Assembly: GCA_020027215.1 (NCBI GenBank)
Contig: JAHRAO010000015.1
Coordinates: 1-64,000, forward strand
Reading direction: 5' to 3'
DNA length: 64,000 bases
From: Gammaproteobacteria bacterium
Lineage (GTDB): Bacteria > Pseudomonadota > Gammaproteobacteria > JABABF01 > JAHRAO01
Of this stretch, positions 45,305 to 48,742 are shown piece after piece. Both the position numbers and the translations under genes were made by a program. Position 1 is the stretch's first letter. Every line of letters starts with the position of its first letter. The notes under the pieces are model-generated. The model did not search any database, was not told the origin of the DNA, and worked only from the letters and a program-made list of their open reading frames with translations.

Positions 45305-46810
45305 TTACAATCTGTGCTCGCCGTGTTCGGCCTGTCCAGAAATATCCATAGATACAGGGACGGTACACCATTTTAATAATACCTTCGCATTACGTTGCAC
45401 ATTATAAGTTTGCCGGCGGCTTACCGGTAATTCATTAGGCGTCGCCAGGCGGAATCCGCGCTCCAAAAACCAATGTGTGGTTTGTGTACTCAGCACAAAA
45501 ATATAATGCATTTCCATTACCTGCGCCATTTCTTCTAACATTTGCAACATTTTATTCCCTCGACCGGCCATGCGATATTCACTATCGGTGACCATGCACG
45601 AAATCTCCCCACAATGCCCCTCTGCATAGGCATACAATGCTGCACAGCTAATAATCTTCCCGTCTCGTTCAATGACCACAAAATTATTGATTCCGCTTTC
45701 CAAATCTACTCGTGGTCGTTTCACTAATACACCATCTTCTTCCAATGGGCGAATTAAACGCAAAATTCCGTCTATATCCGCTCGTTGGGCGGTGCGGAAT
45801 TTTTCATACGGTTCCCGGGTGACCATAGTGCCACACCCATCGCGAGTGAAAATTTCGCGCAGCAAAGCATCCTTTTTGCGCGCATTAACTAAATGTACCC
45901 GCTGGACACCTCGTTCAATCGCCGAGTGTGCTACTCGTAAAAGTGGATGCGCAGCATATCGCTCGTGCACGTCATTCACAGTCAATTCACTTGGCAACGG
46001 AGGGTGTGTCTGCGGGGAAACCACCTGATCACCTATGAGAATGAGCTTATCCGCACCCAATAGGGTTGCCGTTTGCATAGCAATTTCAGTTGCCGAAAGC
46101 AAGAATATGTCACCCTCCATACCAAAACCCAACGGCGGTAATAATACAATATGCCCACTTTGTAATTGGCTTAATATCATCTCTTTATCAATTTTGCGCA
46201 CTCTGCCAGCATGGAGCATATCGACGCCGTCAATGACCCCCACCGGTCTCCCTATGATATAGTTGCTTTGACTGATTGGAGTGGATACTCCGTGGAGATG
46301 GCGATTTGGTAAACTCATCATGCACGCTAAGTGCGTAGCGCTTGCCGTAATGTCACTAATTGCTTGTTGCATCGCATCTGCAGCCGGTAAGATATCCTCT
46401 GGCCAATTGATCTGATCGGAGTAATCTTCCTTGCACGGCACTTGATGGGCAAATACCACTACTATGGCGATATCTAAACAATTGAGCAAGGCAATGTCCT
46501 GCGCCAATGCCTGTAAATAATCCTGACGCAAGAGGCGACTCGCCAGCCAGAGCACAAAAATACGGCGCCGATGGGTGCGTAAATACGGAACAATTTCCCT
46601 AATCGGATGCACAGCATGATGACAACCGATATACTCGTTATGTAACGATTGGATACGCTGTCCAACTGAAAAAGCCACATCGCCCTTACTGTGCCTCATT
46701 CTGTGCACTGTAGATTGCGAACACTGCGCGTGCTGCGCTATTTCTTGTTCCGACCAACCGGTGGCATATTGTATTTCGCGCAATAACTGGGCAAGGGATT
46801 GATAGTGCAT
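45305..46810 (-). CDS. argA: N-acetylglutamate synthase with N-terminal Xre-like HTH domain
   Basis: First enzyme of arginine synthesis (acetyl-CoA + glutamate). 501 residues against about 440 for E. coli ArgA; the extra length is an N-terminal segment (about 1-60) that reads as a Cro/Xre HTH: LLREIQYATGWSEQEIAQHA, then SQSTVHRMRHSKG and a closing helix. Residues about 70-290 are the amino-acid-kinase domain and about 330-480 the GNAT domain (ISCMVTDSEYRMAGRGNKML). An internal GTG at 46612 could start a conventional ArgA but has no ribosome site. The upstream ATG also lacks an obvious one. A promoter and inverted repeats lie upstream. ftsK follows by 7 nt. Confidence 0.92.
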   Translation of the reverse strand: MHYQSLAQLLREIQYATGWSEQEIAQHAQCSQSTVHRMRHSKGDVAFSVGQRIQSLHNEYIGCHHAVHPIREIVPYLRTHRRRIFVLWLASRLLRQDYLQALAQDIALLNCLDIAIVVVFAHQVPCKEDYSDQINWPEDILPAADAMQQAISDITASATHLACMMSLPNRHLHGVSTPISQSNYIIGRPVGVIDGVDMLHAGRVRKIDKEMILSQLQSGHIVLLPPLGFGMEGDIFLLSATEIAMQTATLLGADKLILIGDQVVSPQTHPPLPSELTVNDVHERYAAHPLLRVAHSAIERGVQRVHLVNARKKDALLREIFTRDGCGTMVTREPYEKFRTAQRADIDGILRLIRPLEEDGVLVKRPRVDLESGINNFVVIERDGKIISCAALYAYAEGHCGEISCMVTDSEYRMAGRGNKMLQMLEEMAQVMEMHYIFVLSTQTTHWFLERGFRLATPNELPVSRRQTYNVQRNAKVLLKWCTVPVSMDISGQAEHGEHRL

Positions 46811-46817
46811 GTAAACT

Positions 46818-46915
46818 ATATATAAATTTTTTACACCTATTTTACCAAAAAATTAATTATATCTTAATAAATTATCGATTTTATAGATATTGAGCGCAAA
46901 AAATAATTTATATAT
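46818..46915. repeat. Widely spaced inverted repeats flanking the argA promoter
   Basis: ATATATAAATT at 46818-46828 is perfectly complementary to AATTTATATAT at 46905-46915. Nested inside is ATATCT (46859-46864) with AGATAT (46885-46890), 20 nt apart, spanning the -10 and start region of the argA promoter. The region is very AT-rich, which raises the chance rate. Proposed as candidate operators for the HTH of the downstream argA product; this is inference. Confidence 0.35.
46871..46899 (-). promoter_or_regulatory. Putative argA promoter
   Basis: On the minus strand, TTGCGC (46899-46894) and GATAAT (46876-46871) are separated by 17 bp. A start near 46864 would give a leader of roughly 54 nt with no clear ribosome site before the ATG. 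No ArgR-type box was recognised here. Confidence 0.55.
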
Positions 46916-46939: not shown

Positions 46940-48742
46940 TTATTTGTCAGACGCTAAACGCACCGCGGGAAAATAATCGGCAATTTTTTCTCGTTGCCAC
47001 CAATCACCGCTTTGGTTATGCCAACGCGTGTAACGATACCGATAAAGATGGGCCCGCACATAAACTGGCGGGCGGGACGCAAAAGGGTTGCTGGCAAACA
47101 AAGCGTTAACAGACGGGCTCCCCTGTAATAAACGCAACATCAAATGGCTGAACCACGGAGCGTTATTTGCGCCGCGCAATGAAGCAAACCATAATTGCCA
47201 ATCCAAACGAGGCTGGTGAGGGATATTCCACGGCGGCGGGCGATGTGTAGCATCCGGCTTATAACGGAAAGAATAAGCGTGCCATTGCTGTCCATCCCAT
47301 GACCCCTCAATAATAATTTCGTTGCGCTCGGTCGTCATTATCGCAAAGAGCCCATAGCGATTGACCGCGTGTAACGGCGAAAAAAAATCAGTAGCATAAC
47401 TTAATAGTGGCACGGGGGCACGATAAAATGTCTCTGCAATGCGTACCATACCTAATAGTGTCACAGTCACGAAAAAAATGCGTAGGCACCACCCACTTGA
47501 AAAAAATTGTGCGGATGAGCGCACAGAATAAAAACGGGTTAACCATTGATCGTCCAACAAAAACAAGCACAGGAAAATGGTCAGCACATTAAAATAGTTA
47601 TAATTGCCGGTACACAAAATGGCAATCTCCAAAACCACAAACCCGATTGCAGCGATATGCCGTAACCGGCGAGGAAAAAAAATCAACCACGGCAAAACGA
47701 GCTCAACAACAAAAGTAGCGCCCACCATCCAATAGTGTAGGGTGGCGGGTAAGTGGTGAGCATACCAGGCTAATGGCGTGGGAAGCGGTTGTGTTTCGTA
47801 ATGAAATTGGAGTGCGCTCCAATCCGCCCAAGTGGCATCGCCGCTGAGCAATTTCACCACCCCAGACAAAAACATAAAGCGAAACAATAATAAGCGAAAC
47901 AACCAAATTGGCAAAGCCGAGCGGGGGGAGAGAAAAATGGCAAGTAAGCCGCATTCAAGGAGTAGTAAATCCCACTGATACGACATAAATACTTGGCCAG
48001 CATAAAATAACGACAAATAAAAGATAAACGCCACCAGCAAAACCAAGCGCCGCACAATGTTTAACTGCGCCATGCGGAGAGGAAGAACACTCAATAATAC
48101 CCCGCACAAAACCCCACCCCAACATAAGGCTGTAATGAACGCATCGCTTGCCGATAACCAAAATACATTGGGGGCATGGTAGTATGCCAATGCCCCTAAT
48201 CGCTGATACACCCCATCCAGCCATGCTTGCAATGGCACAATACCATTTTCGCCAATCAAACCCATGGCTTGCACAGCAAAAGAAGCAAAGGCACAAATAT
48301 ACACCACTCCCAGCAAACGGATAAACAAGTCACTCACCAGCTCATAACGAGCGGGGGTTATGCTATGACCCCAGCATGCAGTAGTCACCAACGCTAATAA
48401 TGAACGATGGTTTGCGCAAAAACGATACACTTTTTCAGATAAATAACGAAAGAAAGACACCGCACAATACCAACGCCACCAGTATTGTTTGCTCGGCACA
48501 GATGCCAATGTGGCAAATGCCGCCCCTGCCCCGCTCGCACGCACTGTACCATCCGATGAAATGTACTGAATTGACTGCCGACAATCCTCTGCGGTCAAAG
48601 GAGCAAACTGCGCATAATTGTCCTGATAAGGAAGATAGTGGACTCTTTCTCGCGTTAATTGGCGGTAATACTCAATCCATCGCCGACACACCGCACACTC
48701 TCCATCGTAAAGGAGAGTGCCTCCATAAATTGTCTCCGTCAT
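46940..48742 (-). CDS. DCC thiol-oxidoreductase domain fused to lipase maturation factor-like protein
   Basis: 600-residue membrane protein. Residues about 8-115 form a DCC (DUF393) domain with D13-G-E-C16-A-V-C19, a thioredoxin-like redox motif. About 135-420 is a polytopic region with lipase maturation factor (LMF1/2) family features: SYQWDLLLLECGLLAIF, RFMFLSGVVKLLSGD and GNYNYFNVLTIFLCL. The C-terminal soluble domain has WNIPHQPRLDWQLWFASL and a late FASNPF segment typical of LMF. In animals LMF1 helps fold lipases in the ER; bacterial substrates are unknown. A ribosome site GGTGAGA and a plausible promoter precede it. Confidence 0.85.
   Translation of the reverse strand: MTETIYGGTLLYDGECAVCRRWIEYYRQLTRERVHYLPYQDNYAQFAPLTAEDCRQSIQYISSDGTVRASGAGAAFATLASVPSKQYWWRWYCAVSFFRYLSEKVYRFCANHRSLLALVTTACWGHSITPARYELVSDLFIRLLGVVYICAFASFAVQAMGLIGENGIVPLQAWLDGVYQRLGALAYYHAPNVFWLSASDAFITALCWGGVLCGVLLSVLPLRMAQLNIVRRLVLLVAFIFYLSLFYAGQVFMSYQWDLLLLECGLLAIFLSPRSALPIWLFRLLLFRFMFLSGVVKLLSGDATWADWSALQFHYETQPLPTPLAWYAHHLPATLHYWMVGATFVVELVLPWLIFFPRRLRHIAAIGFVVLEIAILCTGNYNYFNVLTIFLCLFLLDDQWLTRFYSVRSSAQFFSSGWCLRIFFVTVTLLGMVRIAETFYRAPVPLLSYATDFFSPLHAVNRYGLFAIMTTERNEIIIEGSWDGQQWHAYSFRYKPDATHRPPPWNIPHQPRLDWQLWFASLRGANNAPWFSHLMLRLLQGSPSVNALFASNPFASRPPVYVRAHLYRYRYTRWHNQSGDWWQREKIADYFPAVRLASDK

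Follow-up and report, generated by a model that had tools for sequence, protein, structure and literature searches.

The minus strand of the window (the whole stretch of DNA that was analysed, 64,000 nucleotides) carries a single reading frame at 45305-46810, without a stop codon and with homology on either side, first to helix-turn-helix (HTH) regulators and then to N-acetylglutamate synthase (NAGS, ArgA). The gene opens a run that also includes ftsK, lolA and serS. The features referred to below are the following, all on the minus strand.

45305-46810, minus strand: HTH-ArgA fusion gene, 501 aa, ATG start, encoding an N-acetylglutamate synthase with an N-terminal helix-turn-helix
46811-46939, minus strand: intergenic region with the argA promoter, 23% GC; the ATG has no Shine-Dalgarno sequence
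46810-46835, minus strand: weak operator candidate TGTAAA-N14-TTTACA; it overlaps a TATATA and extends over the A of the ATG start
46631-46810, minus strand: phage-type Xre/Cro HTH domain, residues 1-60 (PHROG 6831, HTH_31, AlphaFold2, Foldseek)
46694-46717, minus strand: HTH recognition helix, residues 32-39 (QSTVHRMR; AlphaFold2 helix 32-39)
46676-46678, minus strand: GTG at residue 45 as another possible start, just downstream of GTAAGGG; translation from it would yield an HTH-less ArgA of usual length
45806-46615, minus strand: amino-acid-kinase-like (AAK) domain including the N-terminal helix, about residues 66-335 (profile matches); HGARPQ replaced by FAHQVP
46046-46048, minus strand: K255, aligned with the arginine-binding K201 of N. 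gonorrhoeae NAGS (2r8v alignment; PMC4490483)
45827-45856, minus strand: arginine-binding loop E-I-F-T-R-D-G-C-G-T, residues 319-328 (2r8v alignment; motif from PMC4490483)
45368-45805, minus strand: GNAT acetyltransferase domain, about residues 336-481 (profile match, 2r8v alignment)

The ArgA profile NF003641 spans residues 65-480 of the ORF (E=1.8e-123, 412.7 bits against a cut-off of 344) and TIGR01890 matches with E=3.4e-109; by both profiles the ArgA homology begins at residue 65-67. The protein has the make-up of a classical bacterial NAGS, with full-length AAK and GNAT domains and a score above the curated cut-off of NF003641. Among 29 ArgAs from relatives, the closest start codon that could be used is mostly 2-20 residues ahead of the profile match, and all 29 lack an HTH. 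Since these enzymes start close to the match and lack the domain, the first approximately 62 residues of the window ORF are, on this comparison, a real N-terminal extension of ArgA. Close relatives of the window protein itself were found neither in its order nor by a single-protein scan of genome contigs.

The extension was matched by PHROG 6831, a 68-aa phage transcriptional regulator, over residues 16-60 (E=1.6e-8), by Pfam HTH_31 (E=1.8e-5; 25.4 bits, slightly below the Pfam cut-off of 27) and by a stand-alone relative from another gammaproteobacterium (BLASTP E=1e-8; L154). An AlphaFold2 model of residues 1-80, built from a small alignment of eight homologues, gave four helices (6-17, 21-27, 32-39 and 47-60) with block-mean pLDDT of 76-93 across residues 1-60. 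In the full-length model, which had no homologues for the HTH, the pLDDT there was 50-77 and the last HTH helix continued into the N-terminal helix of ArgA (helix 43-80); such an unbroken helix between the two domains is only a suggestion of the model. The nearest PDB folds found by Foldseek were HipB, C.AhdI (C-proteins), SinR, 434 Cro and P22 c2, with a probability of 1.00; many superpose with an rmsd near 2 A across about 54 residues, and the weak E-values (0.04 and above) are to be expected of a domain of this size. The small phage regulators of PHROG 6831 and the HipB/C-protein fold resemble the window HTH along all 60 residues of the domain, both in sequence and in fold, but they are stand-alone proteins while the window HTH is fused to ArgA. 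With a family sequence match and a helical fold containing a recognition helix, residues 1-62 are a complete Xre/Cro-type HTH, beyond what chance would give, and are predicted to bind DNA; helix 32-39 would make the contact if the domain behaves as its family does. The sequence-only reading had placed about 60 extra residues with an Xre/Cro HTH before an ArgA of full length starting near residue 68, and had proposed structure prediction of the N-terminus; the profiles bear out both parts of the claim, and the model of residues 1-80 showed the complete four-helix domain. Among the conditions that would have refuted the same reading was a recognition helix without positive charge, together with no DNA binding; the recognition segment SQSTVHRMRHSKG is basic. 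No paralogue of the HTH was detected in the own genome; tblastn against phages and plasmids gave weak matches only, and viral contigs none. Among the matches listed in 369 genomes, only the PHROG 6831-type HTH of the window sits in an ArgA frame.

The residues required for catalysis and for arginine binding were located from the alignment with N. gonorrhoeae NAGS (2r8v) and from the residues given in a review of the family (PMC4490483). The general base E402 (Glu353), the general acid S441 (Ser392) and the substrate arginines R365 (Arg316) and R473 (Arg425) are kept, and the CoA motif R/Q-x-x-G-x-G/A is present as RMAGRG; Ser427, replaced by A475, is the single exception among the catalytic and substrate residues. 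The arginine site is intact, with the loop EIFTRDGCGT, K255 and E319, the equivalent of E270. The AAK domain is otherwise strongly diverged: the HGARPQ kept in nearly all ArgAs reads FAHQVP (46418-46450), and several further conserved positions are lost. Compared with the classical enzymes (N. gonorrhoeae 2R8V/3D2P and E. coli ArgA), the window protein has the same AAK and GNAT domains and the same catalytic and arginine residues, with 32% identity in the structural match, but differs in the additional N-terminal HTH, the lost HGARPQ and the Ser427 to Ala change. Judged by these residues it is an intact predicted ArgA. The arginine site of N. gonorrhoeae NAGS is next to the N-terminal helix, which moves when arginine binds, and the N-terminal helices of adjacent subunits interlace (PMC4490483). 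The HTH of the window protein sits just ahead of this helix.

Of 369 gammaproteobacterial genomes surveyed, 246 had ArgA, and the ArgAs having an open frame long enough for such a domain were read (G056 and G057 left out). This yielded a second case of HTH, AAK and GNAT in one protein, the architecture for which a search had been proposed from the sequence alone, in genome G344, and no third one among the 246 ArgA-bearing genomes read in this way. Long open frames also precede ArgA in other gammaproteobacteria; no HTH was seen in them save in Cycloclasticus, and most are high-GC frames open by chance. Across 18 genomes of the family of G344 the HTH was present in 16/16 ArgA matches, and when the Cycloclasticus HTH alignment was run against 84,980 named genomes, 14 loci were returned; in all 14 the HTH belongs to an ArgA, and nearly all bear the title Cycloclasticus. 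No Cycloclasticus ArgA without the fused HTH was found, in 16 species. The HTH is closest to P22 Cro and YdaS, with relatives in phages, and its median dN/dS of about 0.13 shows purifying selection, though many pairs are saturated in dS. Its recognition segment is nearly invariant (K-D/N-P-A-T-I/V-Y-R-W-T-Y), the linker to ArgA is variable, and the arginine site is kept. At one Cycloclasticus locus (L103:1-5542) HTH-argA is closely preceded by an argF-like OTC gene, by ilvD and by a gene for an argE-like deacetylase.

All 16 of the Cycloclasticus argA promoters contain a palindrome TTGC-N7/8-GCA(A/T) which starts 27-37 bp before the ATG, while shuffled promoters gave a chance rate of 0.00075 (about 7.5e-4) per promoter. 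Its eight core bases are 94-100% conserved, against flanks falling to 40-75%. In several species a TATAAT-like box follows the palindrome and ends 6-7 nt before the ATG (argA upstream regions L078-L107), thus the palindrome lies within the promoter and the HTH-argA mRNA may be leaderless. No other consistently shared site was found in the Cycloclasticus argA flanks or in eight genomes, and a wider regulon was rejected, since apart from the argA site the exact pattern is no commoner in the eight genomes than the control. At many loci a second TTGCAATTTTTTGCAA-like copy is seen near -110, in most cases within the last part of argE; because of this position, and because it partly follows the argE codons, the copy was given no weight. 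Read from sequence, the palindrome with its putative operator role and the HTH-ArgA together have the anatomy of an autoregulator.

The Cycloclasticus and window proteins have in common an HTH directly before ArgA, the kept arginine site and a promoter next to the ATG. They differ in the HTH itself, which in Cycloclasticus is P22-Cro/YdaS-like and not of the PHROG 6831/HTH_31 type, in the variable linker and in the conserved TTGC-N7/8-GCAA palindrome. As profiles the two HTHs cannot be aligned (hhalign probability 0.4%), and their best Pfam and PHROG families differ; therefore the Cycloclasticus case is an analogy and not orthology. The ArgA tree places the window ArgA with a single unfused one at 95/94, but a joint clade with Cycloclasticus is not rejected by the AU test (p=0.354). 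Two separate captures of an HTH are more likely than one, and a single capture followed by replacement of the HTH domain is the less likely course. Whether arginine-sensing NAGS took up phage-type HTHs at least twice, each time before the helix moved by arginine, and so became its own arginine-dependent repressor, we regard as an evenly balanced question.

No comparable site could be made out in the intergenic region before the argA of the window. The exact repeat TGTAAA-N14-TTTACA occurs only at argA in its own genome and no motif shared with other places of that genome was found for it, yet repeats of this size appear in about half of the shuffles (P about 0.5), and it was rejected as the window operator. 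The sequence-only reading had suggested that this ArgA may sense arginine or acetylglutamate through its kinase domain and regulate its own operon (argA-ftsK-lolA-serS) or other arg genes. Regulation of its own gene is partly supported by the real HTH, the intact arginine site and the Cycloclasticus parallel, and is weakened by a window promoter repeat no better than chance; for control of other arg genes no support was obtained, the exact repeat being confined to argA. The own genome (1.53 Mb, 97% complete) has no match to the ArgR DNA-binding domain. It carries ArgJ as well as ArgA (L174, G000:C11:36280-37374), and likely also ArgB, a NAGK-like AA kinase. ArgJ implies the cyclic arginine pathway, where ArgA serves to top up.

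We propose, with a probability of roughly 0.6, that the window protein is a bifunctional autoregulating enzyme (a trigger enzyme), an arginine-sensing ArgA which also controls its own gene. The protein would form the usual NAGS hexamer, in which the N-terminal helices of neighbouring subunits are interlaced, and the HTHs would therefore be held in pairs; the paired HTHs would bind the argA promoter. Arginine would bind next to the N-terminal helix, and the inhibitory movement would also reposition the HTH pair and alter its binding at the promoter. Feedback inhibition and the control of transcription, probably as repression, would then lie in one protein. A different HTH would have the same role in Cycloclasticus, acting on the TTGC-N7/8-GCAA operator in its own promoter. 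The hexamer, DNA binding, repression and arginine as the signal are what we infer. An enzyme plus repressor is the most likely reading because both the HTH and ArgA are real, the arginine site is intact, and the fusion is conserved in Cycloclasticus together with the palindrome. Counted in favour of autoregulation were the complete basic HTH, the retention of the arginine loop, K255, E319 and the catalytic residues, and the missing ArgR match; counted against it were the lack of a close relative of the window protein, for which the Cycloclasticus HTH is an analogy of another family, the promoter repeat at chance level, the loss of HGARPQ, the ATG without Shine-Dalgarno sequence and the HTH pLDDT of 50-77 in the full-length model.

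The fused protein could also be translated without being a regulator. A deletion in a shrinking genome would then have joined a phage regulator gene to argA, the HTH being tolerated baggage or serving oligomerisation or stability only. The genome size of only 1.53 Mb agrees with this, as do the single occurrence of the window fusion, which has no relative to show conservation, and the lack of both a convincing window operator and a motif shared elsewhere in the genome. However, the fold of the HTH is still canonical and complete and its recognition helix still basic, and the architecture has been maintained in Cycloclasticus alongside an operator-like palindrome. We consider this explanation unlikely.

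The main rival to a fused protein is an internal start. The real ArgA would begin at the GTG at 46678 (residue 45), or both starts would serve, one for a fused and the other for a plain enzyme; the half of the HTH ahead of the GTG would be an untranslated or minor remnant. This GTG is a live alternative by its sequence: it follows a Shine-Dalgarno-like GTAAGGG (-4.9 kcal/mol), whereas no such sequence stands before the ATG (+1.0 kcal/mol), its product would have the usual ArgA length, and the codon score of residues 23-44 is weak. For codons 1-44 as a whole, frame 1 is the best forward frame, and the score of 0.079 lies at the low edge of real genes (5th percentile of genes 0.086; 99th percentile of other frames 0.076). 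Against the internal start, the HTH homology crosses residue 45 and reaches residue 60, so that a start there would halve a domain which is complete from just past the ATG up to the ArgA helix. The GC content also changes at the ATG, from 10-17% in the 60 nt upstream to 43-53% downstream, and several other genes of the window lack a Shine-Dalgarno sequence as well. In several Cycloclasticus species the TATAAT-like box 6-7 nt before the fused ATG suggests a leaderless mRNA, and the TATATA of the window stands at a similar distance. On balance the internal start, alone or together with the ATG, is improbable. The GTG at 46612, named in the sequence-only reading as the internal start that would undo the fusion, has a weak Shine-Dalgarno sequence (-1.3 kcal/mol) and is an unlikely start.

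Rather improbable is a DNA-binding regulator which answers another signal (e.g. acetylglutamate, acetyl-CoA or the protein level alone) or has its main target elsewhere, such as the downstream ftsK-lolA-serS: an AAK domain without HGARPQ and other conserved positions and the place of argA at the head of that run would fit it, but the arginine loop, K255 and E319 are intact and the only shared site in Cycloclasticus is at argA, with argE just upstream.

PutA, BirA and NadR are catalytic proteins with a DNA-binding domain of their own, by which they control pathway genes. These are other enzymes with other folds and pathways, and the sensor of the window protein would be the enzyme's own feedback-inhibition site. 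Enzymes joined to a DNA-binding domain are thus known in general, and the HTH-ArgA fusion is a variant of which no description was found in the searchable literature (open-licence PMC papers). The review of the NAGS family gives other fused types, e.g. ArgH-NAGS, and does not mention a fusion with a DNA-binding domain or HTH (PMC4490483). Transcriptional roles have been reported for enzymes of the arginine or pyrimidine pathway, namely yeast Arg5,6 (PMC10672435) and E. coli PyrH and PepA at carAB, where PyrH was not found to bind DNA directly (PMC6245113); unlike the window protein, these have no dedicated fused HTH. ArgR exerts arginine-dependent arg control as proposed for the window protein, but it is a separate, non-enzymatic protein. 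If the autoregulating enzyme is real, the committed step of arginine synthesis would be under feedback inhibition and gene repression by one and the same protein, and the fused ArgA would replace or supplement ArgR. It would also illustrate a simple route from enzyme to transcription factor, in which a small phage regulator is placed beside an allosteric lever already present. The idea is open to direct test in Cycloclasticus, where 16 species share a single conserved domain and a single conserved site.

Two further observations concern the neighbourhood of argA and the ArgA family. PADLOC reported nothing relevant, and the gene ahead of argA (46940-48742) encodes a 600-aa membrane protein with, by eye, a DUF393-like thiol-disulfide start followed by an HTTM-like membrane domain. 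The ArgAs of genomes G113 and G368 (L067, L068) each matched the profile in two parts, separated by about 40 additional residues, which suggests an insertion in their AAK domain.
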